A stretch of DNA of 64,000 nt from contig JACPVF010000011.1 of assembly GCA_016191845.1 (NCBI GenBank), forward strand, positions 248,001 to 312,000. Direction: 5' to 3'. Positions 24,045-46,601 of the stretch are shown here, in pieces. Origin of the DNA: Chloroflexota bacterium. GTDB lineage: Bacteria > Chloroflexota > Anaerolineae > Anaerolineales > Villigracilaceae. The position numbers and the translations under genes were made by a program. How positions within the stretch are numbered: position 1 is the first letter of the stretch; each line of letters starts with the position of its first letter. The notes under the pieces are model-generated. The model did not search any database. It was not told where the DNA came from and was given only the letters and a program-made list of their open reading frames with translations.

Positions 24045-25547
24045 TCACAGGCTCAAATTGGCCGTGGGCAAAAAGGCAGGCGGCTTGCGGACCTTCGTCA
24101 GCTGCTCAAAAGCGTAGGCCAGCTTGATCAGGATCGGCTCCTGCCAGGCTCGACCGATGAAGGAGATGCCCACGGGCAGACCAAAAACGTACCCTGCTGG
24201 GACGGTGATGTGCGGATACCCCGCCACCGCCGCATGCGAGGTGCTGTCCATATCCCAGTTGCTGCTGCCGTCGCCATTGACGTGGTCCACCATCCACGCG
24301 GGGCCGCCAGACGGAATCACGATGCAGGCGAGGCGTCGCCGCTTCATAACGGCATCCAGCCCTTCGGTCCGCGTGAGGCGGTGGTTCTTTTCCAGCGCGG
24401 CCAGATACTTCTTGCTGGTCAGGGGTCCGCGTTTCTGGGCTTCCTCCATATGCTCCTGCCCGAAGAACGGCATGACCTGCGCGCGGTGTTCGTTGTTGAA
24501 GGCAATCACGTCCGCCATCGAGCGTACGGGCACGTCGGTACAACCTGCGAGGTAGGCGTTTAAGTCGGCCTTGAACTCGAAATGCAGCACCTCGGTCTCC
24601 GTCTTGCCGAACGCGTCACTGGATTTCAACTCGACGTCGACCAGCACCGCCCCCGCTTTCTTCATCATTTCGAGATTGGGGTCCATCAGGGCGAGCAGGC
24701 GCTTGTCGCTGCCGAACAGACTCCGCGCCACGCCAATGCGGGCGCCTTGCAGGCCGTTGGGATCAAGGAAGGGCGTGTAATCTGTCAGTCCCTTCTTTTT
24801 ACTGGACCGTGTAGCCTGGTCCCGTTTATCGGAGCCAGCCATCGCCCCGAGCAGGATGGCCGCGTCGGCCACGCTGCGGGCCATCGGACCCGCCGTATCC
24901 TGGCTGTGCGCGATGGGGATAATGCCCGAACGGCTGACCAGGCCAAGGGTCGGCTTGATGCCCACGATACCGTTGGTCTGCGAGGGGCAGATGATCGAGC
25001 CGTCGGTTTCGGTGCCCACCGCTGCGGCACAGAAATTAGCCGCCACCGCCGCACCCGATCCCGAGGACGAGCCGCATGGCGAGCGGTCGAGGGCATAGGG
25101 ATTGCGGGTCTGCCCGCCGCGCGAAGACCATCCGCTGATGGACTTCTTCCCGCGGAAGTTGGCCCATTCGCTCAGGTTGGTCTTGCCAAGGATGAGAGCG
25201 CCTGCCGCGCGCAGTTTTTCCACCAGACCCGCATCCTGCGCGGCACGATGACCTTGCAGCGCCAGCGACCCTGCCGTAGTCTGCAGGCGGTCGGCGGTGT
25301 CGATATTGTCCTTGAGCAGGATGGGGACTCCATGCAATGGCCCGCGGATTTTCCCCTTACGCAGGTCGGCGTCCATCTTGTCGGCGAGCTCGAAAACCTG
25401 CGGATTCAACTCGATGACCGAGTTCACCTTCGGCCCATCCTGGTCGTAGGTCTTGATACGGGTCACATACTGGTCGACGAGTTGTCGCACGGTCAGGTCA
25501 CCCGATCTCAGCCCAGCCTGGATCTCGGCAATGCTCAATTCTTCCAT
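24045..25547 (-). CDS. Amidase-signature family hydrolase
   Basis: 500 residues. The Ser-cisSer-Lys triad is readable: Lys79 (ILLKDN), cis-Ser in CGSSSGSG (about 160-162) and nucleophile Ser184 in TETDGSI. It is longer and less Gly-rich than GatA and lacks GatA context, so it is a stand-alone amidase (peptide amidase or 6-aminohexanoate hydrolase-like group) with unknown substrate. It differs from the true gatA at 29116. A start at 25547 is favoured, with an AGGTAGG site upstream. Confidence 0.85.
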   Translation of the reverse strand: MEELSIAEIQAGLRSGDLTVRQLVDQYVTRIKTYDQDGPKVNSVIELNPQVFELADKMDADLRKGKIRGPLHGVPILLKDNIDTADRLQTTAGSLALQGHRAAQDAGLVEKLRAAGALILGKTNLSEWANFRGKKSISGWSSRGGQTRNPYALDRSPCGSSSGSGAAVAANFCAAAVGTETDGSIICPSQTNGIVGIKPTLGLVSRSGIIPIAHSQDTAGPMARSVADAAILLGAMAGSDKRDQATRSSKKKGLTDYTPFLDPNGLQGARIGVARSLFGSDKRLLALMDPNLEMMKKAGAVLVDVELKSSDAFGKTETEVLHFEFKADLNAYLAGCTDVPVRSMADVIAFNNEHRAQVMPFFGQEHMEEAQKRGPLTSKKYLAALEKNHRLTRTEGLDAVMKRRRLACIVIPSGGPAWMVDHVNGDGSSNWDMDSTSHAAVAGYPHITVPAGYVFGLPVGISFIGRAWQEPILIKLAYAFEQLTKVRKPPAFLPTANLSL

Positions 25548-26096: not shown

Positions 26097-26210
26097 GAAA
26101 GTTCTGAAAACCTTGTGTGCAGGAATTCACACGCACCTAGAAATCAGGAATCGGATTCTTCTATAATTTCCAGAGGACTTTGAAATTCATCCTGAGCGAT
26201 TTTGGATTTG

Positions 26211-26219
26211 TGCTATAAT
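26211..26219 (+). promoter_or_regulatory. Extended -10 promoter of leader 1/aspS1 operon
   Basis: TGCTATAAT (TGn plus TATAAT) ends 10 nt before the leader-peptide ATG. The identical TGCTATAAT precedes leader 2 at 32147. No good -35 is visible, as is common for extended -10 promoters. Confidence 0.8.
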
Positions 26220-26229
26220 GCCGTCCAAC

Positions 26230-26319
26230 ATGAAGCCAGAACTGCTCTTCGCCCTGAATAATAATAACAATAATAATGACGACCGCATGGCGGCCGTTGG
26301 GCGAAGCGCATCTGGTTGA
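26230..26319 (+). CDS. Asn/Asp-rich leader peptide 1 of the aspS1-gatCAB operon
   Basis: 29-codon ORF. After MKPELLFAL come seven consecutive Asn codons (six AAT, one AAC; 26257-26277) and two Asp codons. The rest reads [12 protein letters not shown] and ends in TGA. There is no Shine-Dalgarno; translation would begin within a few nt of the predicted 5' end. A second leader at 32163 keeps the frame MK..L.FA, an Asn/Asp run, then DR..VGRS..G. Run position relative to the RNA stems fits ribosome-mediated attenuation by uncharged Asn- or Asp-tRNA. Too short for ordinary gene finders. Confidence 0.88.
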
Positions 26320-26384
26320 CAGAGATAGCAATACAGGTCAAACCAAACCGCCCAACGGAAATCCGCTGGGCGGTTTTTGTTTTA
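26248..26384 (+). promoter_or_regulatory. Ribosome-mediated transcription attenuator 1 (Asn/Asp)
   Basis: Four pairing segments. Region 1: TTCGCCC (26248-26254), just before the Asn run. Region 2: CCGTTGGGCGAA (26294-26305), near the end of the leader ORF. Region 3: CGCCCAACGG (26349-26358). Region 4: the 3' terminator arm (26362-26373). 1:2 pairs over 7 bp, 2:3 over 10 perfect bp, and 3:4 is the terminator. A ribosome stalled in the Asn/Asp run would mask region 1, free region 2 to capture region 3 and allow read-through into aspS1. A ribosome at the stop codon would favour termination. Confidence 0.87.
26346..26384 (+). terminator. Attenuator 1 terminator hairpin
   Basis: ACCGCCCAACGGA/TCCGCTGGGCGGT with one A-C mismatch and a tight AA loop, followed by TTTTTGTTTTA. 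It lies between the leader peptide and aspS1. Confidence 0.93.
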
Positions 26385-26447
26385 TCCACTGTCATTGCGA
26401 ACTTCGGAAAGCGCTCCTCAAACCGCAGCGACATCAAGGAGGCAGGT

Positions 26448-28214
26448 ATGTACAAGACACACACATGCGGGGAAGTCACATCCGCCATGATCGGCCAGAC
26501 GGTGACGCTGGCAGGCTGGGTGCATCGCTACCGTGACCACGGCGGCGTGCACTTCGTGGACCTGCGCGACCGTTTCGGGGTGGTGCAGCTCGTGGCGGCA
26601 CCCGAGGTTACGCCGCATGCCCATGAGGTGCTGGACGAGGCGCGCCAGGAATGGGTGGTACAGGTCAAGGGTGTGGTCGAACGTCGGCCTGCGGGCATGG
26701 AGAACGCCAAACTGCCCAACGGTGATATCGAGATCGCCGTGCGCGAGGCGGAGGTGCTCAACCCATCCAAACCCCTGCCCTTCTCGGTCAATAACGGCAA
26801 CGGCGGCACAGATGAGACTCTGCGGCTAAAATATCGCTACCTCGATTTGCGCCGCGCGAAGATGCTTCAGAACCTGACTCTGCGACACGAAGTAGTTTTG
26901 TTTATGCGCAACTACCTCAGTCAGCGCGGTTTCCTCGAAGTGGAAACGCCCATCCTGTTCAAGACCACGCCCGAGGGCGCGCGCGACTATCTCGTGCCGT
27001 CGCGCGTGTACCCTGGTCAATTCTACGCGCTGCCGCAGTCGCCGCAACAGCTCAAACAGTTATTGATGGTCGGCGGGATCGAGCGTTACTTCCAGATCGC
27101 GCGCTGCTTCCGCGACGAGGACCAGCGTGGCGACCGTCAGCCCGAGTTCACACAGCTCGACATTGAGATGGCCTTCGTCGAACGCGACGATGTGCTGGCT
27201 CTGGCCGAAGGGCTGTTCACGGCGCTGATCCCCGCCGTGGCCCCCGAGAAGCGGCTGATGCAGACTCCCTGGCCGCGCCTGACCTACGAGGAAGCGGTCT
27301 CTCGCTTCGGCTCGGATAAGCCCGACCTGCGCTTCGGCATGGAACTGACCGACGTCAGCGCGGTCTTTGCAGAGACAGAGTTCTCGGTCTTCAAGTCCGC
27401 GTTGGCGAAGAAGAACGGCGTGATCAAGTGCATCGTTGCGCCAGGCTGCGCGGAATATTCGCGCAAACAACTCGAAGCGCTGACGTTGACGGCGAAAGAG
27501 CTCGGGGCGGGGACTCTGGTCACTCTGGCGGTGACAGCCGAGGGTCCAAAGGGCAGCGGGAGCAAGTCCATCCGCGTGGAAGAGCTGGCTCAGATCCAGG
27601 CCCTGACGGGCGCGGAAGTCGGCGACCTGATCCTGTTCGTGGCGGAAGAAGCCAAAGTCGTCCACAAAGTGCTGGGCGCGTTGCGGCTGAATTTCCGCGA
27701 TGCGCTGGAACTGGTCGACAAGGATGAGATGGCTTTTGCCTGGGTGCTGGACTTCCCGATGTTCGAGTGGAGCGAGGAAGAAAAGAAGTGGAACGCGGCG
27801 CACCACCCGTTCACCATGCCGCGCTTGAGCGACCTCGACAAGTTCGAGACCGACCCTGGTTCGATTTTATCGGATGCGTATGACATGGTGTGTAACGGCT
27901 ACGAGATGGCCTCGGGCTCGATCCGCATCCATCGGCGCGAGATCCAGTCGAAGGTGTTCGAGTTGCTGGGCATCGAGGAAGAAGAGGCACAGTATAAGTT
28001 CGGGCACATGCTGGAAGCGTTCGAGTTCGGCGCACCGCCGCATGGCGGCATGGCGCCAGGCATCGACCGGCTGGTGATGCTGCTGACCGATGAGCCGAAT
28101 ATCCGCGAAGTGATCGCCTTCCCGAAGAACTCCTCGGGCCGCGATGTGATGGCTGATGCACCGTCGTACGCGGAAATGGAACAACTAAAAGAATTACATA
28201 TTAAGTCATCGTGA
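26448..28214 (+). CDS. aspS: Aspartyl-tRNA synthetase paralogue 1 (probably non-discriminating)
   Basis: 588 residues, normal for bacterial AspRS: OB-fold anticodon domain (1-110), class II core and GAD insertion (about 290-420). Motif 2 is [22 protein letters not shown]-type and motif 3 [17 protein letters not shown]. In the anticodon-binding loop it reads [10 protein letters not shown]; a His at this position is typical of bacterial non-discriminating AspRS that also charge tRNA-Asn with Asp. Clustering with gatCAB, which amidates Asp-tRNA-Asn, fits. AAGGAGG lies before ATG 26448; a longer frame starting at 26316 would run through the terminator and is rejected. Confidence 0.93.
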
Positions 28215-28232: not shown

Positions 28233-28454
28233 ATGAATATCAAGGAATTGATCATCAACAAAACAGCAAGATTCGCCTACTGCACGGATGGCGCGTTGTG
28301 GTATGAAGTGGACGGTTTCCGTTTTCCCATCCCATTCGAAGAGACGGTCGGCGCATACTTCAAACCCGAACACAAGGCCATCAACCTGATGCGCTGGATC
28401 AGAAAACAGTTGGAAGAGAACGAGGCTCAGCGCAGCAGCCAGGCATCGAAATAG
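28233..28454 (+). CDS. Conserved small protein of unknown function
   Basis: 73 residues starting MNIKELIINKTARFAYCTDG, with ALWYEVDGFRFPIPFEE and a C-terminal AINLMRWIRKQLEENE helix. I recognise the general pattern (an aromatic GxLWY...FxFPxP core) from widespread small hypothetical proteins, but no function is known to me. An AGAAGGT site precedes the ATG. It ends 10 bp before the PemK-like gene, so the two are probably co-expressed. Whether it acts as that protein's antitoxin is speculative. Confidence 0.75.
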   Translation: MNIKELIINKTARFAYCTDGALWYEVDGFRFPIPFEETVGAYFKPEHKAINLMRWIRKQLEENEAQRSSQASK

Positions 28455-28464
28455 GCGACAGCGG

Positions 28465-28803
28465 ATGAACATCGCGCAAGGCGACGTTTTCTGGATCTCA
28501 CCCGATGAAACGGAAATCTCCTCCGATCATGCCCATCCGCATGTCATCGTTCAGGTCAACGCACAGACGGTCGTCGTGTGTGCGTTGACCTCGAACCTGA
28601 AGCGCGCCAAAGAGCCTGGCAATGTCCTGCTGGCTGAAGGCGAAGCGAATTTATCCAGACAAAGTGTTGTGGTGACGTCCCATACCTCAACGGTAGAGAC
28701 AGCGAAATTAGGCGAATGCATCGGGACGTTGGCAAAACCGAGCATCGATCAAGTGCTGACTGGCATGCGTTTTTTGCAGACGCTGACCCAGCATCATGAA
28801 TAA
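28465..28803 (+). CDS. PemK/MazF-like protein
   Basis: 112 residues with the PemK/MazF beta-barrel pattern: GDVFWISPDE, HPHVIVQVNAQTVVVCALTSN, PGNVLLAEGEANLSRQSVVVTSHTSTVE and a C-terminal helix ending in MRFLQTL. Such proteins are usually mRNA interferase toxins with an upstream antitoxin. The upstream 73-residue protein is not a recognisable MazE/PemI antitoxin. Its placement inside an aspartyl/asparaginyl-tRNA operon is unusual. A solitary, possibly domesticated, PemK fold protein is the cautious reading. Confidence 0.75.
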   Translation: MNIAQGDVFWISPDETEISSDHAHPHVIVQVNAQTVVVCALTSNLKRAKEPGNVLLAEGEANLSRQSVVVTSHTSTVETAKLGECIGTLAKPSIDQVLTGMRFLQTLTQHHE

Positions 28804-28815
28804 GAAAGAGGCTTT

Positions 28816-29115
28816 ATGACCCAGATCATAGATACCAAGACCGTCAAGCATGTGGCCTTCCTGGTGCGCATGGGCATCAGCGATGGGGAGGCGCAGAGCT
28901 TCAGCCAGCAATTTTCGGCCATCATCGATTTTTTCAACCTGCTCAACGAAGTGGACACCCACGACACACCGCCTGCCACGCAGGTCATCCACGCCAACAT
29001 GGTCTTGCGCGAGGACGCGGCGCAGCCATCCATGCCGCGCGAGGATTTCCTGAAGAACGCGCCCGAAAGCGAAGAAGGCTACGTCAAAGTCTCGACCGTG
29101 CTGGGGGAGGAATAA
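28816..29115 (+). CDS. gatC: Asp/Glu-tRNA amidotransferase subunit C
   Basis: 99 residues, the small GatC subunit that wraps around GatA and GatB. The start ITDTKTVKHVAFLVRMGIS-like region and SFSQQFSAIIDFFNLLNEVDT match GatC, as does the Asp/Pro-rich LREDAAQPSMPRE segment near the end. It abuts gatA with no gap, TAA directly followed by ATG. It is part of the GatCAB enzyme that converts Asp-tRNA-Asn and Glu-tRNA-Gln to Asn- and Gln-tRNA. Confidence 0.92.
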   Translation: MTQIIDTKTVKHVAFLVRMGISDGEAQSFSQQFSAIIDFFNLLNEVDTHDTPPATQVIHANMVLREDAAQPSMPREDFLKNAPESEEGYVKVSTVLGEE

Positions 29116-30579
29116 ATGGAGCTGTCTTCTTTGACGTTGCGTTCGGCACAGGAAATGCTACGCAGCAAACAGATCAGCAGCGTGGAGCTGACCCAGGCCA
29201 TGCTGGACCGCATCCGCAAGATCGACCCGCAGATCCAAGCCTACGTCACGGTCACCGAAGACGTGGCGCTGGAACAGGCGCGCCGCGCCGACGAGCGGCT
29301 GGCCACGAGCGAGAACGTCACCCCGCTGACGGGAATCCCGTTCGGCGTGAAGGACTGCCTGTCCACGAAGGGCGTGCGCACCACCTGTTCATCCAAGATA
29401 TTGGAAAACTACGTTCCGCAGTACAACGCCACCGTGATCGACAAACTCGCGGACTCGGGCGCGGTGATGCTCGGCAAGCACAACATGGACGAGTTCGGCA
29501 TGGGCTCCTCATGCGAGAACTCGGCCTACTTCCCCACCCGCAACCCGTGGGACCTGACGCGTGTCCCTGGCGGGTCGAGCGGTGGGTCGGCGGCGGCGGC
29601 AGCCGCGGGGCTGGGCCTCTTCTCCATCGGCGAGGATACGGGCGGATCGGTGCGCATGCCCGCAGGCTTCTGCAACGTCACGGGCCTCAAACCGACCTAC
29701 GGACGCGTGTCTCGTTATGGATTGATCGCGCTGGCTTCGTCGTTCGACTCGATCGGGCCGATGGCGCGTGAGGTGTACGACGTGGCGGCGGTCACAGAAG
29801 CCATTGCGGGCCTGGACAAGCGCGACAGCACTTCGTCAACACTGCCCGTGCCGCAGTACACACAGTCGCTGGGCAAATCGGTCAAGGGCATGAAGCTCGG
29901 CATCCCGAAGGAATATTTCGTGGCAGGCATGGAAGCGGGCGTGGAAAGCGCCATCCACAAAGCCATCCAGCAGTTCGAGGCGCTCGGCATGGAGATCCAC
30001 GAAGTATCGCTGCCGCATACCAAATACGGACTGCCCGTCTATTATCTGATCCTGTTCGCGGAGGCCAGCGCCAACCTGGCTCGCTTCGACGGCACGCGCT
30101 TCGGCCTGTCGGTGCGCGACGGCGCCGAAGATGTGATCGACGTCTACCTGCGCACCCGCGCGGCAGGCTTCGGCGACGAGGTCAAGCGGCGCATCATGCT
30201 GGGTGCGTACACGCTCTCGGCAGGTTATTACGACGCGTATTACCTCAAGGCGCAAAAGGTCCGCACCCTGCTGCGGCAGGATTTCGAGCAGGCCTTCGAG
30301 CAAGTCGACGCGTTGATCGCGCCGACCTGCCCAACCACGGCCTTCAAGATCGGCGAGAAGACCGCCGACCCGCTGGAGATGTATCTCTCGGACATCTACG
30401 TCACGGCCACCAACCCCGCAGGGATTCCCTCGCTGGCCGTCCCGTGCGGATTCTCGCAGGGCATGCCGGTCGGGATGCAGTTGATGGGCAAGCATTTCAA
30501 TGAAGAGACGCTGTTCCAGATCGGCCACGCCTACCAGCAGGTCACCGACTGGCACAAGCAATTGCCGCCGCTTGGATAG
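29116..30579 (+). CDS. gatA: Asp/Glu-tRNA amidotransferase subunit A
   Basis: 487 residues, normal for GatA, the glutaminase subunit that releases ammonia. The amidase triad is clear: [10 protein letters not shown] (Lys), [16 protein letters not shown] (cis-Ser) and [15 protein letters not shown] (nucleophile Ser). The C-terminus [16 protein letters not shown] is typical. The gene begins directly after gatC, with GGAGG inside the gatC end. Ammonia is passed through the complex to GatB. Confidence 0.97.
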
Positions 30580-30660: not shown

Positions 30661-32112
30661 ATGACCAAATACGAAACCGTGATCGGGCTTGAGATTCACG
30701 CCGAGCTGCAAACCGCCTCTAAGATGTTCTGCGGCTGCTCCGCCGACTACGCTTCCGCGCCCGCCGCCAACACCAACATCTGCCCCGTCTGCACGGCGCT
30801 GCCTGGCGCGATGCCCGTCATCAACGCCAGAGCCGTCGAGCAGGCCGTCCTGGTTGGCATGGCGCTCAACTGCACGATCAACCCACACAACACTTTTGCG
30901 CGCAAGAATTATTTCTATCCCGACCTGCCCAAGGGCTACCAGATCTCGCAATACGAGCTGCCCATCGCCTCTGAGGGTTGGATGGACGTCCCTGCCGATT
31001 TGGGCGAGGGAACGCAGCGCATCCGCATCCGCCGCGCCCACCTTGAAGAGGACACCGCCAAGACCTTCCACCGTGGCGACCACGCGCTGATCGACTACAA
31101 CCGCGCAGGCGTGCCGCTGCTGGAGATCGTCACCGAACCCGACTTCCGCACCGTGGAGGCCGCGCTGGCCTACGCCACCAACGTGCGCGCCATTTTGCGC
31201 TACCTCGGCGTCAACTCGGGCGACATGGAAAAGGGCGTGCTGCGCTTCGAGGCCAACGTCTCTGTGCGCCCTATCGGCAGCGACGAGTTGCGCACCCGCA
31301 CCGAGATCAAGAACCTGAACAGTTTCCGCGCCCTGACCCGCGCATCGGCCTACGAGGTCGAACGCCAGATCAAGCTCTACGAGAGTGGCGGTGAGGTCGT
31401 GCAGGAAACACTGGGATGGGACGAAGCCCGCGGCGTGACCGTTTCCCAGCGCAGCAAGGAACACGCCCACGACTATCGCTACTTCCCCGAGCCCGACCTG
31501 CCTCCGTTGCAACTGGCGGAATCCTTCATTGAAAGTTTCCGCGCCCACCTGCCCGAACTGCCCGAAGCCAAAACCCAGCGCTTCCTCCGCGACTATGGCT
31601 TGAAACTGCAGGACGCCGCGCTGCTGGCCTCTGAGCGTTCTCTGGCAGACTACTTCGAAGCGGTCACCGCCCAGACGAAGGATTCCGCTAAAGTGGTCTG
31701 CAACTGGCTGACGGGTGAGTTCATGCGTCAGATCAACGACCGCGCTCTGAGCGTGGATTCGATCCCCATCCCCGCCGCGCACCTGGCCCAGCTCATCGAC
31801 CTGGCCTTCGACAAAACCGTCAGCGGCAACACCGCCAAGTCCGTGCTGGTCGAGATGTTCCAAAGCGGGCGTGCGCCGAAGGACATCGTCGAAGCGCAGG
31901 GACTGGGACAGATCTCAAACGAAGGTGTCCTCAAAGAGATGGTCATCAAGCTCATCGCCGACAACCCGAAGGAAGTCGCCAGCTACCTGGGCGGCAAGGA
32001 AACCCTGCTGCAATGGTTCATGGGGCAGGTCGCCCGTGCCACCAAAGGCAAAGCCGACCCGCAGGCCGTGAAGCAGTTGCTGCTGGATGAATTTGAGAAA
32101 TTAAGAAAGTAG
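30661..32112 (+). CDS. gatB: Asp/Glu-tRNA amidotransferase subunit B
   Basis: 483 residues, normal for GatB, which holds the kinase-amidotransferase active site and the tRNA-binding YqeY tail. Motifs are [15 protein letters not shown], the metal-site CGCS...CPVC pair, [20 protein letters not shown] and [15 protein letters not shown]. The C-terminal segment [14 protein letters not shown]...[18 protein letters not shown] is the usual tRNA-contacting tail. It completes the gatCAB operon behind attenuator 1. A perfect hairpin lies immediately after it. Confidence 0.97.
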
Positions 32113-32146: not shown

Positions 32147-32155
32147 TGCTATAAT
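32147..32155 (+). promoter_or_regulatory. Extended -10 promoter of leader 2/aspS2-asnS operon
   Basis: TGCTATAAT ends 7 nt before the leader ATG at 32163, so transcription should start at or next to the AUG, giving a leaderless message. Confidence 0.8.
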
Positions 32156-32162
32156 TGTTGCC

Positions 32163-32243
32163 ATGAAATCCCGACTGCCCTTCGCCAACAACAACGACGA
32201 CAATGACGATCGCCGTATCGTTGGGCGAAGCCTGGCTGGTTGA
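32163..32243 (+). CDS. Asn/Asp-rich leader peptide 2 of the aspS2-asnS operon
   Basis: 26-codon ORF: MKSRLPFA, then the run NNNDDNDD (four Asn, four Asp; 32187-32210), then RRIVGRSLAG and TGA. It shares layout and flanking residues with leader 1, while the Asn/Asp balance differs (4:4 here, 7:2 there). No ribosome site precedes the ATG; the -10 box 7 nt upstream implies leaderless translation. The conserved FA and VGRS residues are encoded by the RNA segments that must pair, so conservation is at least partly due to RNA structure. Confidence 0.88.
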   Translation: MKSRLPFANNNDDNDDRRIVGRSLAG

Positions 32244-32299
32244 CGGAAAACTTTCGAAAACCTGATCGCCCAACGCAAATGCGAAGGGCGATTTATTTT
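32181..32299 (+). promoter_or_regulatory. Ribosome-mediated transcription attenuator 2 (Asn/Asp)
   Basis: Region 1: TTCGCCAAC (32181-32189), at the entrance of the Asn/Asp run. Region 2: CGTTGGGCGAA (32219-32229), in the last codons. Region 3: TCGCCCAACG (32266-32275). Region 4: GCGAAGGGCGA (32281-32291). 2:3 is 10 perfect bp, 1:2 pairs with one bulged G, and 3:4 is the terminator. The switch logic is the same as in attenuator 1. Confidence 0.87.
32265..32299 (+). terminator. Attenuator 2 terminator hairpin
   Basis: ATCGCCC/GGGCGAT outer stem and CGC/GCG inner stem separated by an AA/AA internal loop, then TTATTTTG. It lies between leader 2 and aspS2. Confidence 0.88.
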
Positions 32300-32307
32300 G
32301 TAGAGAT

Positions 32308-32423: not shown

Positions 32424-34187
32424 ATGTACAAAACTCATACTTGCGGCGAATTGCGCGCCGCCCATGCAGGTCAGACCGTGACCCTGGCGGGCTGGGTGCA
32501 CAACTTCCGCACGTTCGGCGGAGTAGTCTTCCTGGTCCTGCGCGACCGTTACGGCATCACTCAGATCACCACCAACCCGACAGAATTCCCTGAGGCGCAC
32601 CAGGCCATTGAATCGGCCAAGGCCGAATGGGTGTTGCAGATCGAGGGCGTGGTCAAGATGCGTCCCACGGACCAGTTCAACCCGAAGATGTCCACGGGCG
32701 AGATCGAGCTCGAAGCCCGCAAGGTGACCGTGCTGAACCAGTCCAAGGCCACGCCCATCGTGGTCAGCCGCGACGAGGACGAGAATGAGGATATCCGCCT
32801 CAAGTATCGCTACCTCGACCTGCGCCGCGAACGCATGAGCCGCAACATGGTGTTGCGCCATCGTGTGGTCAAGTTCATGCGTGATTTCATGGACAAGCAC
32901 GGCTTCATCGAGGTCGAGACGCCCATCCTGTTCAAGGCCACGCCCGAAGGCGCGCGCGACTACCTCGTGCCGTCGCGCATCCACCCTGGTCACTTCTACG
33001 CCCTGCCCCAGTCGCCGCAACAGCTCAAGCAGTTGCTGATGGTGGCAGGCATGGACCGTTACTTCCAGATCGCGCGCTGCTTCCGCGACGAAGACCTGCG
33101 CGGCGACCGTCAGCCCGAATTCACCCAACTTGACCTGGAAATGTCCTTCGTCCATCGCGACGATGTGCTGACTCTGGTCGAACAGCTCTACACCGAGATG
33201 CTGCCCGCCGTCGCCCCGCACAAGAAGCTGCTCTCCTCGCCCTGGCCCAAACTCTCGCATCACGAAGCCCTCGAACGCTTCGGCTCCGACAAGCCCGATC
33301 TGCGCTTTGGCATGGAATTACAGGACGTGACCGACATCTTCGCCAAGAGCGAGTTCCGCGTCTTCCAGTCCGCGCTGGAGGCGAAAGGCGTCATCAAGTG
33401 CATCGTCGCTCCTGGCTGCGCGGACTTTTCCCGCAAGGAGGTCGACGCGTTGACCGAGGCGGCCAAGTCGCTCGGGGCCAAGGGGCTGGCCACGGTAGCG
33501 GTGACAGCCGAAGGCGTCAAGGGAACGGCTGGGAAGTTCGTCACTGCTGACGAGGTGGCAGCGCTCAAGTCGCGCCTGAACCTCCAGAACGGCGACCTGG
33601 TCCTGTTTGCCGCAGACGCGCGCGCCGTCGTCAACAAGGTGCTGGGCGGTCTGCGCCTCATCCTCCGCGACAAGCTCAGCCTGGCCGACAAGGACACGAT
33701 GGCTTTTGCGTGGGTGGTCGACTTCCCGATGTTCGCCTGGAACGAGGAGGAGCAGCGTTGGGACGCCGAGCATCACCCATTCACCATGCCCCAACTCGAT
33801 GACCTCTCGAAGTTCGACAGCGACCCTGGTTCGATCCTCTCGGATGCCTACGACATGGTCTGCAACGGCTACGAGATGGCTTCAGGCTCGATCCGCATTC
33901 ACCGCCGCGACATCCAGACCAAGATCTTCCAATTGCTCGGCCTCAAGGACGAAGATATCCAGGCCAAGTTCGGACACATGCTCGAAGCCTTCGAGTTCGG
34001 CGCGCCGCCGCACGGCGGCATGGCCCCTGGCATCGACCGCCTCGTGATGCTGCTGGCCGACGAGCCAAACATCCGCGAAGTGATCGCCTTCCCCAAGAAC
34101 CAGAGCGGCCGCGATGTGATGGCCGACGCCCCGTCCACGGTGGAAGATCGGCAATTGAAGGAATTACATATTAAAATAGCGGAATAA
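32424..34187 (+). CDS. aspS: Aspartyl-tRNA synthetase paralogue 2
   Basis: 587 residues, collinear with paralogue 1 and sharing its first residues (MYKTHTCGE), class II motifs ([22 protein letters not shown]-like motif 2, [17 protein letters not shown] motif 3) and GAD insertion. The anticodon-loop segment differs: [10 protein letters not shown] instead of RDHGG, losing both the RD pair and the His typical of non-discriminating enzymes. Clustering with asnS suggests it is the tRNA-Asp-specific form, or one with altered anticodon reading. GGAGG lies before ATG 32424. No frameshift or lost catalytic motif is seen, so both copies should be active. Confidence 0.93.
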
Positions 34188-34268: not shown

Positions 34269-35612
34269 ATGACAGAAATCATTCGCGTCTCAGACATCTC
34301 GAAATACGCAGGCCAGGAAATCACTGTCCAGGGCTGGGTCTACAACCGCACCGACAAGGGCAAACTGTGCTTCCTGCTCGTGCGTGACGGCACGGGCTTC
34401 GTGCAATGCGTAGCCTTCAAGGGCGATCTCGCGCCCGAACTCTTCGAACAGATCATGCGCCTGCCGCAGGAGTCCTCGGTCATCGTCACGGGAGCAGTCC
34501 GCGAGGACAAGCGCGCGCCCGGCATTCCCGGCGGATTCGAGCTGGGCATCAAGGAACTGAAGGTCGTCCAGACCGCCGAAGCCGACTACCCGATGGCGCT
34601 CAAGGACCACGGCGTGGACTTCGCGCTCGACAACCGTCACCTGTGGCTGCGCATGCAGAGCCAGTGGGCCGTCCTGCGCGTGCGCGCCACGGTCATGGCC
34701 GCCACCCGCGAATGGCTCGACACCAACGGCTTCGTCGAGATGAGCACCCCCATCCTCACGCCCGCCGCCGCCGAAGGCACCACCACCCTCTTCGAGACCG
34801 AATACTTCGACGAAGGCAAGGCCTATCTCGCGCAGACAGGCCAACTCTACAACGAAGCCAACATTTTCTCGTTCGGAAAAGTCTACTGCTTCGGTCCCAC
34901 CTTTCGCGCGGAAAAGTCCAAGACCCGCCGTCATCTGACCGAGTTCTGGATGCTCGAGCCTGAGATCGCCTTCTGTGACCTCGACCAGTTGATGGAGATC
35001 GAGGAGCAGATGATCACCCACATCGTCCAGCGTGTGATCCGCGAGCGCACGCCCGAGTTGAAATTCCTCGGCCGCGACATCGCCAAGCTGGAAGCCATCC
35101 AGGCACCCTTCCCGCGTATCTCCTACGATGATGCGGCCAAGATGCTGGTCGAGTTGCGCGAGAAGGAAACCGACCCCGAAAAGAAGGAACTGCTTAAGTT
35201 CGACTGGGGTATCGACTTCGGCGCACCCCACGAGACCGCCATCACCCAGCAGTTCGAAAAGCCCGTCTTCGTCTACGGCTACCCGACCGCTGTCAAGGCC
35301 TTCTACATGGAACCCTGGCCGGGCCGCCCCGAAGTCTGCAAATCAGTCGACCTGCTGGCCCCCGAGGGTTACGGCGAGATCTGCGGCGGCTCCGAGCGCA
35401 TCAGCGATCCCGACTTGTTGCTCCAGCGCATTCACGACCAGAACCTGCCCGAGGAAGCCTTCAAGTGGTACCTCGACCTGCGCAAGTTCGGCTCCGTCCC
35501 CCACAGCGGATTCGGCATGGGCACCGAGCGCGTCACCACCTGGCTGTGCGGCACCGAACACATCCGCGAGGCCATCGCCTTCCCACGCACGATCAAACGG
35601 GTTTATCCGTAA
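34269..35612 (+). CDS. asnS: Asparaginyl-tRNA synthetase
   Basis: 447 residues, class IIb. The OB-fold start VSDISKYAGQEITVQGWVYN, the AEGTTTLFETEYF active-site strand, FGPTFRAEKSKTRRHLTEFWMLEPE (motif 2 area) and GFGMGTERVTTWLCG (motif 3) identify AsnRS rather than AspRS. It attaches Asn directly to tRNA-Asn. ATG 34269 has TTGGAG upstream. It is downstream of aspS2 and therefore behind attenuator 2. The genome thus encodes both a direct and a transamidation route to Asn-tRNA side by side. Confidence 0.95.
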   Translation: MTEIIRVSDISKYAGQEITVQGWVYNRTDKGKLCFLLVRDGTGFVQCVAFKGDLAPELFEQIMRLPQESSVIVTGAVREDKRAPGIPGGFELGIKELKVVQTAEADYPMALKDHGVDFALDNRHLWLRMQSQWAVLRVRATVMAATREWLDTNGFVEMSTPILTPAAAEGTTTLFETEYFDEGKAYLAQTGQLYNEANIFSFGKVYCFGPTFRAEKSKTRRHLTEFWMLEPEIAFCDLDQLMEIEEQMITHIVQRVIRERTPELKFLGRDIAKLEAIQAPFPRISYDDAAKMLVELREKETDPEKKELLKFDWGIDFGAPHETAITQQFEKPVFVYGYPTAVKAFYMEPWPGRPEVCKSVDLLAPEGYGEICGGSERISDPDLLLQRIHDQNLPEEAFKWYLDLRKFGSVPHSGFGMGTERVTTWLCGTEHIREAIAFPRTIKRVYP

Positions 35613-36651: not shown

Positions 36652-36756
36652 GCGTCTCTCCTTTTATAAGTTGCCTACAGGGTAGCATAAAACGGTCTCT
36701 AAATCAACGCTCATGTTTCTCTACCCCTGACTTTGAGATTATGGTATAAGAACGAT

Positions 36757-36931
36757 GCCCTGCTGTGTTCGTGATGTTGCACCCGCGGTTTTGAGCCAAC
36801 ACTCTCGAAATGGGCTCTTATCTTACAGAAATAACGCGATAGGCCTGAGCCAAGGCGGCGTTTCTGGGTCGGAGCCCAACCTGCCAAAAGCAGGTTCAAA
36901 ACTTCGCAACACACGGCATGTGCGGGGTCCA
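36757..36931 (+). ncRNA. ssrS: Probable 6S RNA
   Basis: About 175 nt from just after TATAAG (36745-36750) to a T-run at 36932. It folds as one long interrupted rod: a closing stem with TGTTGC/GCAACA and CGTG/CACG, then GTTTTGA/TTCAAAAC, TGGGCTC/GAGCCCA and CAGAAA...CGC/GCGTTTCTG. A central bubble has an unpaired 5' strand (AACACTCTCGAAA) and a small hairpin (CCTGC-CAAAA-GCAGG) on the 3' strand. This is the architecture of 6S RNA, which mimics open promoter DNA and binds sigma-A RNA polymerase. Open frames here are short and not gene-like. Assignment is by structure only. Confidence 0.72.
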
Positions 36932-36938
36932 TTTTTAA

Positions 36939-46422: not shown

Positions 46423-46601
46423 AAGAGAACGCTGCCTCTCTGGTTGAGCTTCAGCACTGCACATCGTAGGAACATCTTGCGTTCCAGCCACATTGGGTAA
46501 AGCCTTATGCCGACCTTACCTGGTCTACCCTTTGGCGTCTTTCGACGTTTCAGGACAATGGCCTGTGTATTTTGCAGCCGCCTGGCCTAACGAGGACTAT
46601 T
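46423..46601 (-). promoter_or_regulatory. M-box (ykoK) magnesium riboswitch
   Basis: Minus-strand aptamer with the conserved blocks in order: CTCGTTAGG near 46595, GGCGGCTGCAAAATACACAGG, ACGTCGAAAGACGCCAAAGG (the strongest match), and CAGTGCTGAAGCTCAAC near 46440-46456. It precedes the MgtE-like/NRAMP operon. In the known class, Mg2+ binding compacts the RNA and favours the terminator, so low Mg2+ induces the transporter. Confidence 0.92.

Follow-up and report, generated by a model that had tools for sequence, protein, structure and literature searches.

What governs expression of the genes that charge tRNA-Asp and tRNA-Asn when the aspartyl-tRNA synthetase gene aspS1 stands behind a short open reading frame (ORF) crowded with Asn and Asp codons? 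We addressed this question in a window of 64,000 nucleotides (the whole stretch of DNA analysed) from a genome of the Chloroflexota family Villigracilaceae. A preliminary description had read the locus as a trp-type attenuator, a reading that is supported by conservation of the element, by covariation of its stems 2:3 and 3:4 and by the scrambling of synonymous codons, and which carries the response to starvation as a prediction. On sequence comparison we consider it probable that the window holds two such ribosome-mediated transcription attenuators, one before aspS1-gatCAB and one before aspS2-asnS, that sense charged tRNA-Asn and charged tRNA-Asp together, and very likely that attenuation of one kind or the other (by an Asn plus Asp sensor or by an Asn-only sensor) operates there. 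The comparison supports the leader ORF, the codon run, the alternative stems, the terminator, the gene neighbourhood and the match between codons and genes; from these we infer the start site, ribosome stalling, coupling and which way the switch responds.

The operon reads, on the forward strand, leader 1, aspS1 for a bacterial-type aspartate--tRNA ligase (26448-28214; TIGR00459, 734 bits), an ORF of 73 amino acids with no family match (28233-28454), a gene for a PemK/MazF-like protein (28465-28803; PF02452, 55.6 bits), gatC (28816-29115; TIGR00135, 86 bits), gatA (29116-30579; TIGR00132, 617 bits; the sole gatA above cut-off in the genome), gatB (30661-32112; TIGR00133, 550 bits), leader 2, aspS2 for a second bacterial-type aspartate--tRNA ligase (32424-34187; TIGR00459, 750 bits) and asnS for asparagine--tRNA ligase (34269-35612; TIGR00457, 455 bits). 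The 73-residue ORF and the PemK/MazF-like gene (28233-28803) are arranged like a toxin-antitoxin pair inside the operon between aspS1 and gatC, and tblastn found a match over half of either one at none of 80 named loci, including that of a relative with the same operon (L034). Elsewhere in the window, a GatA-like amidase of the PRK08137 family is encoded on the opposite strand at 24045-25547, near the operon with the true gatA; a 6S RNA lies about 1.1 kb downstream of asnS (36754-36932, forward strand, 66 bits), and an M-box magnesium riboswitch at 46429-46601 on the reverse strand (125 bits).

Leader 1 consists of a predicted ORF of 29 codons on the forward strand (26230-26319; ATG at 26230, stop codon at 26317-26319) which, as first described, contains seven Asn codons in a row (codons 10 to 16, 26257-26277) followed by two Asp codons (codons 17 and 18, 26278-26283). 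This run begins just after region 1 (CTTCGCCC, 26247-26254), the position originally assigned to it, and is followed by region 2 (CCGTTGGGCGAAG, 26294-26306), which can pair either with region 1 or with region 3 (CGCCCAACGG, 26349-26358); region 3 in turn is shared between the antiterminator 2:3 and the terminator 3:4, whose hairpin (26345-26376) and subsequent T tract extend over 26345-26384. Within region 2 the arm used in 2:3 is CCGTTGGGCG (26294-26303), and the arm used in 1:2 is GGGCGAAG, which extends to 26306. The proposed 2:3 pairing of 10 perfect base pairs and the 3:4 terminator with its U tract were both recovered, but stem 1:2, the anti-antiterminator, comprises 8 base pairs and not 7. 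Calculated stem energies are -11.8 kcal/mol for 1:2, -16.7 kcal/mol for 2:3 and -21.7 kcal/mol for 3:4, and the fold is better than that of any of 200 dinucleotide shuffles (z -6.1). Five consecutive AAY codons occur at a single place in the 4.63 Mb genome, namely leader 1 (three overlapping matches), compared with two matches for the reversed-pattern control.

A second complete copy of the element, absent from the preliminary description, lies at 32163-32300 upstream of aspS2, also on the forward strand. Its predicted ORF of 26 codons (32163-32243) encodes MKSRLPFANNNDDNDDRRIVGRSLAG followed by the stop codon and contains a run of four Asn and four Asp codons (32187-32210) between region 1 (CTTCGCC, 32180-32186) and region 2 (CGTTGGGCGAAG, 32219-32230); region 3 (32266-32275), the terminator hairpin (to 32292) and the U tract occupy 32265-32302, so that the order of parts (region 1, run, region 2, region 3, terminator) is identical in the two leaders. 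Leader 2 also folds better than all of 200 dinucleotide shuffles (z -4.2), and it is scored by the model search described below, but that model was built from both copies in the window. Both leaders recur at the equivalent places in L034 (JACRBN010000024.1), whose aspS1 is 93% identical, and the run NNNDDNDD of leader 2 is kept in both genomes read from the window's genus.

Transcription of the two leaders may begin very close to their start codons. A candidate -10 hexamer, TATAAT, at 26214-26219 on the forward strand ends 10 nt before the ATG of leader 1 and, if used, would leave no more than a few nucleotides of RNA ahead of this codon, and a TATAAT hexamer at 32150-32155, 7 nt 5' of the ATG of leader 2 on the same strand, was found by a promoter scan together with the -35 sequence GTGACC (10/12). 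The consensus scan returned 4 sites against 2.4 expected; the hexamer at 26214 is absent from these for want of a -35 element, and a promoter-like site at 26138-26167 is among them, so a longer 5' end of leader 1 RNA is possible. A -10-like hexamer is found in 41 of 47 leaders read, with 12 nt or fewer between it and the start codon in 30 of those 41, and a Shine-Dalgarno-like string in 7 of the 47; aspS1 itself has a good Shine-Dalgarno sequence. (In that set of 47, one row, L035, is misaligned and shows a wrong peptide; the actual sequence of L035 reads MLRWESFLHSEHDNYL...) The closeness of the hexamers and the scarcity of Shine-Dalgarno strings suggest that many leader ORFs are probably read from nearly leaderless RNA.

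The order of the parts suggests how such a switch would work. Transcription would probably start a few nucleotides before the leader AUG, so that a ribosome would load almost at the 5' end of the RNA. With charged tRNA-Asn and tRNA-Asp plentiful, this ribosome would pass the run and reach the stop codon just 3' of region 2 (10 nt beyond it in leader 1); because the stop codon is so close, the footprint expected of a terminating ribosome would cover the 3' part of region 2, and, with region 2 covered or paired again with region 1, 3:4 would form and RNA polymerase would halt before aspS. With charged tRNA in short supply, the ribosome would stall on the run, directly after region 1 and before region 2, a placement that, judged from the expected footprint, fits an attenuator; it would mask region 1, leaving 2:3 free to pair, the terminator blocked and the operon transcribed. 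Most likely, then, the switch would raise expression of the tRNA-charging genes when ribosomes stall for shortage of charged tRNA-Asn or tRNA-Asp.

Is the element more than a peculiarity of one genome? Of 298 genomes of the class, 18 were matched by a covariance model (R1) derived from leaders 1 and 2; these include every one of the 14 members of the window's family in that sample. A second model built from 46 leaders (R2) found a match in 125 of the 150 genomes of the family and in 25 of its 26 genera (78 of 88 among good-quality genomes), a count of which at most 46 are matches by construction, since the model was built with family members. The same model matched 27 of 396 genomes in the class sample, 25 of them in the family, and 18 of 301 in the phylum sample, all of them in the family; searches over more than 40 genomes used stricter filters, at which weak matches are lost. 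Conservation of the run and of the 2:3 pairing in relatives, on whose absence the attenuator reading was to be given up, is thus seen in these matches, in the covariation and in the retained Asn/Asp run. The expected leader blueprint holds in part: FA, the run, VGRS and a glycine before the stop codon are common in the family, but an MK start is not. There is no R2 match in 25 of the 150 family genomes, and 10 of the 20 misses listed belong to a single genus, g386; one weak match (G731) occurs in that genus, where loss or divergence of the element is possible. In several leaders of the family the run is short or interrupted (KDANN in L030/L308), and among 20 low-scoring or two-hit stretches, 5 (L303, L305, L306, L308 and L311) lack an ORF with four Asn/Asp in eight residues.

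Such ORFs are far more frequent upstream of aspS than chance provides. Taking the 80 named loci closest to aspS1 (55 Chloroflexota, 25 from other phyla), we counted ORFs of 10 to 45 amino acids with at least five Asn/Asp in eight residues within 350 nt upstream of aspS; 25 of the 55 Chloroflexota loci have one, several of these loci belonging to one family and so not being independent lineages, against 0 of 55 on the opposite strand and 0 of 25 in other phyla, and 40 rounds of dinucleotide shuffling gave a mean of 0.33 loci and a maximum of 2. Class-wide presence, a possibility also considered, was rejected. Among 108 class genomes with aspS, 99 upstream regions were scored, the others being the window's own genome, G012 (68 nt upstream), G099 (already read) and six places that were partial or lay at a contig edge; 9 of the 99 contain an ORF with five or more Asn/Asp in eight residues, against none on the opposite strand. 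Four of these nine are the four family members in the sample, and the remaining five (of 95 outside the family) include G025, whose ORF has a GTG start far upstream and looks accidental, and scattered cases in f6 (G041), f24 (G057, G021) and f12 (G009). The f6 genomes G099, G248, G172 and G342 have model matches that were read as Asn/Asp ORFs before aspS. On this comparison the element is a trait of the family with patchy occurrence elsewhere in the class.

We asked of an alignment of 46 chosen leaders (A4; MAFFT, made without structural information) whether the stems are kept while their letters change. It leaves out L018 (ilvB), L020 (low-complexity), L019, L021, L028 (contig edge), L032, L035 and L051, as well as the duplicates L026 (of L016) and L029 (of L014), and includes L046 and L055 although their ORFs are uncertain; it replaces an earlier anchoring of stem 2 on the first GGG, which misregistered rows and left 2:3 weak (best column 43/2000 shuffles). 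Stem 2:3 is paired in 87.1% of cells, compared with 27-41% when the arms are slid against each other, and is changed on both sides in 21 cells, against 10.4 in shuffles (0/500) and 2-15 in slid versions; the corresponding values for 3:4 are 93.5% against 35-47%, and 18 cells against 2.5 in shuffles (0/500) and 1-8 in slid versions, a significance that the shuffles overstate for both stems because the rows are related. Stem 1:2 is paired in 77.3% of cells (slid 38-54%), and its 15 cells in 6 pairs with both-sided changes (shuffles 7.9) are equalled by the +2 slide (15, 6), so the percentage paired is what supports it. The compensatory changes looked for in regions 1, 2 and 3 are therefore present in 2:3 and 3:4, but for 1:2 they do not exceed those of a slid version. 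Counted as pairs with any both-sided change, the figures are 6/11 for 2:3, 4/10 for 3:4 and 6/7 for 1:2, each equalled by one slid version.

Because the GGGC/GCCC core of stems 2 and 3 hardly varies, the covariation rests on flanking pairs. Stem 2:3 takes the form CGTTGGGCG/CGCCCAACG in many leaders, CATCGGGCG/CGCCCGATG in L063 and GCTCGGGCG/CGCCCGAGC in L036; in L297 the pair CGTTGGGCG/CGCCCAACG is plain in the sequence, although an automatic greedy stem search picked a false stem there. Many terminators keep an unpaired AA or GA opposite AA beside the GGGCG core. Antiterminator and terminator, mutually exclusive through their shared region 3, are both kept and covarying over the 46 leaders, and two incompatible pairings that persist while their letters change are, as far as sequences can tell, a requirement of an attenuator and not of a plain terminator.

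Several explanations other than attenuation of this kind were weighed. A terminator that merely separates upstream transcription from aspS, with no regulation, would account for the 3:4 hairpin, which alone is a good intrinsic terminator; it is very improbable, given that 2:3 is kept and covarying, that 30 of the 47 leaders have a -10-like hexamer no more than 12 nt upstream of the start codon, and that codon content tracks the downstream gene. A nascent peptide that arrests the ribosome by its own sequence, as SecM or TnaC does, might be suggested by the FA before and the VGRS after the run that are common in the family, yet it is the pairing regions 1 and 2 (TTCGCC; GTTGGGCGAAGC) that encode these residues, divergent leaders lose them while keeping the Asn/Asp codons and the terminator, and the peptide outside the run shows no conservation beyond what the stems encode; we give this explanation very little weight. 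AAY and GAY codons, which make up nearly the whole of the runs, are read by queuosine-modified tRNAs, so the leaders might instead sense queuosine or tRNA modification through slow decoding of NAY codons (Asn, Asp, His, Tyr), with amino acid supply playing no part. Such a sensor is hardly likely either: Asn with Tyr is enriched at 10 loci, no more than Asn with Trp or Asn with Gln (10), against 21 for Asn with Asp, Asn with His is not among the best 15 pairs listed, and Asp is lower in the leaders of asnA than in those of aspS. Least credible of all is a T-box or other known riboswitch beside a coincidental ORF. Genes for aminoacyl-tRNA synthetases are commonly under T-box control in Firmicutes, according to the available part of PMC1262725, but the ORF is far beyond chance and kept as codons, and the region has no T-box match: none at the gathering score in the window (leader 2 was covered at that threshold only) and none up to E 1 in 26150-26450. 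Up to that E value Rfam gives two matches in 26150-26450, both to families other than the T-box and with scores well short of the gathering thresholds; the better one is His_leader on the opposite strand, with 20.3 bits against a gathering score of 49, and no Rfam family fits.

What the run encodes bears on what is sensed. In 22 distinct family-type runs (from 23 leaders chosen, one run being a duplicate), Asn and Asp account for 186 of 191 codons (125 Asn, 61 Asp, 5 other), a count that favours these residues, since each run was delimited by its outermost Asn/Asp codons and so has them at its ends by construction. Synonymous codons are mixed (AAT/AAC 73/52, GAC/GAT 31/30), and this scrambling with Asn and Asp retained indicates that residue identity, and not the DNA, is preserved. 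Upstream of aspS in the 80-locus sample, Asn is the commonest enriched single residue and Asn with Asp the commonest pair.

The gene asnA provides a comparison within genomes. AsnA makes asparagine from aspartate, so that control of its gene would be expected to depend on Asn and not on Asp. The gene is present in 7 of the 150 family genomes, in three genera, and all seven copies have their own leader; on three contigs asnA and aspS stand in tandem, each behind its own. The runs before asnA (NFNNNNNNNN, NNNNNNNNN, NNNNN, NTSNNNGNNND, NNPNTNNN, NSNNDNDN and NVSNNNNN) total 47 Asn to 3 Asp, whereas those before aspS in the same seven genomes, NDNNNDNDD (G223), NINDDHDN (G694), NNNNDNDND (G699), NNNNDNDN (G708), NNDQNDNDN (G717), NNNNDNDN (G725) and NDNNNDNDD (G727), total 36 to 21, so the asnA leaders largely heed Asn as expected. 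Asp is less frequent before asnA than before aspS in 6 of the 7 genomes, with a tie in G725 (2 each); on counts taken by eye, peptide by peptide, the sign test gives p 0.031 and Fisher's test p 1.3e-4, and against the 22 aspS-type runs (125 to 61) Fisher's test gives p 5.8e-5; the codons are not independent, and the genomes are kin, for which the p values are not corrected. In the class sample, such a leader is lacking at all 13 asnA genes from outside the family, and the asnB-like genes of the window's own genome have no Asn/Asp leader upstream. Short of experiment, the asnA comparison, although it is one of sequences, is in our view the best evidence for the mechanism. With the switch placed before aspS, gatCAB-linked aspS and asnA, and with codons that track the gene, nature has come close to performing a codon-swap experiment.

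The closest rival retains the attenuator and makes it a sensor of Asn only, the Asp codons of the aspS leaders being tolerated drift, which is conceivable in that a single transition turns AAY into GAY. Of 47 leader peptides, 40 contain more Asn than Asp (totals 251 and 114), the first codons of the run, nearest to region 1, tend to be Asn, one asnA leader has two Asp, and Asp alone never makes up four of eight residues, so that any role of Asp would depend on Asn being there too. Against drift stand the unequal entry of Asp into the asnA and aspS leaders of the same genomes (47 to 3 against 36 to 21) and the retention of NNNDDNDD in leader 2 in both genomes read from the genus. We hold the Asn-only sensor to be unlikely; since it shares its mechanism with the two-input sensor, and since the asnA leader of G725 ties with its aspS leader in Asp, it does limit our confidence in the latter.

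With the two-input attenuator as the favoured reading, a more specific proposal, which we put forward tentatively and think doubtful, is that it reads the balance of Asp-tRNA-Asp and Asn-tRNA-Asn, the ratio of codons in the leader acting as an evolvable dial that is turned to nearly pure Asn before asnA. The aspS1-gatCAB copy (seven Asn, two Asp) would then sense how much Asn-tRNA-Asn the indirect route delivers, the route by which a non-discriminating AspRS together with GatCAB would make it from misacylated Asp-tRNA-Asn, and the aspS2-asnS copy (four Asn, four Asp) would balance the two direct synthetases. AspRS1 carries the motif RDHGG and AspRS2 the motif RTFGG, from which we draw no conclusion on discrimination. 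In a route like that of Thermus and Deinococcus, aspS and gatCAB serve asparagine supply; the idea that aspS1-gatCAB exists for this alone is weakened, because the genome, besides gatCAB and two aspS genes, has asnS, glnS and an asnB-like gene (513 bits). The genes first described downstream, aspS1 and gatCAB, are in place, and formation of asparaginyl-tRNA through GatCAB is a possible purpose of theirs.

Leaders for other amino acids may exist in the class. A weak model match on the opposite strand of a genome from another family (L018 in G114; E 2.3e-5) has an Ile/Leu-rich leader, ALISIILIID, and a terminator before ilvB, an apparent branched-chain attenuator of like build whose codons once more suit the gene that follows, which hints at leader-peptide attenuation for other amino acids in that family. 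At 16 ilvB loci of the window's family no clear Ile/Leu/Val leader adjoins the gene, a test that says little because most of the upstream stretches resemble the end of another coding gene. Another weak match on the opposite strand (L301 in G743; E 5e-4), which was not counted, has an Asn/Thr-rich leader (MFICNFTTNGNNNTVTNYVTGRWWLQCEQISSCLT and stop codon) and a terminator before a class I/II aminotransferase gene.

If confirmed, the system would allow the sequence alone to predict which charged tRNA each operon responds to, and would offer a handle on how the charging of tRNA-Asn is shared among AsnRS, GatCAB and two AspRS. Among its counterparts are T-box riboswitches, which sense tRNA charging before aminoacyl-tRNA synthetase genes by antitermination and bind the tRNA directly, without translation; the present element would resemble them in sensing tRNA charging before such genes and would differ from them in that direct binding, with no T-box match here. 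In the trpL, hisL and pheST attenuators of Proteobacteria, a short leader peptide with regulatory codons is combined with stems 1:2, 2:3 and 3:4 and an intrinsic terminator. Of the three, pheST encodes an aminoacyl-tRNA synthetase and is cited as such a case in the available part of PMC1262725, which also predicts, comparatively, candidate leader-peptide attenuators before the trp operons, trpS and leuS of Actinobacteria. Those candidates are like ours in being comparative predictions, two of them before aminoacyl-tRNA synthetase genes, and differ in amino acids and phylum; the main text of that paper has no word beginning with asparagin or aspart. In Shewanella, a predicted RNA motif with a terminator upstream of aspS is classed as a tRNA synthetase leader (PMC2659441, available part), which likewise places a predicted regulatory structure and terminator before aspS, with no leader peptide or Asn/Asp run described for aspS in that part. 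In the available part of PMC4833913, Chloroflexi are counted among the groups with too few genomes to judge. The impression that an Asn/Asp attenuator had not been described before agrees with our search of the open-access literature (Lopatovskaya et al. 2010 falling outside its scope), where we found nothing on point for an Asn/Asp attenuator, for leader peptides of aspS or asnA, or for attenuation in Chloroflexi or Anaerolineae. The element thus appears to extend leader-peptide attenuation to Asn and Asp, for which we found no described case, and to the Chloroflexota: it shares with trpL, hisL and pheST the leader peptide, the codon run, the three alternative stems and the terminator before the structural genes, and differs from them in combining Asn with Asp codons, in its targets (aspS, gatCAB, asnS and asnA), in its phylum and, in many of its members, in a probably almost leaderless start of the ORF.
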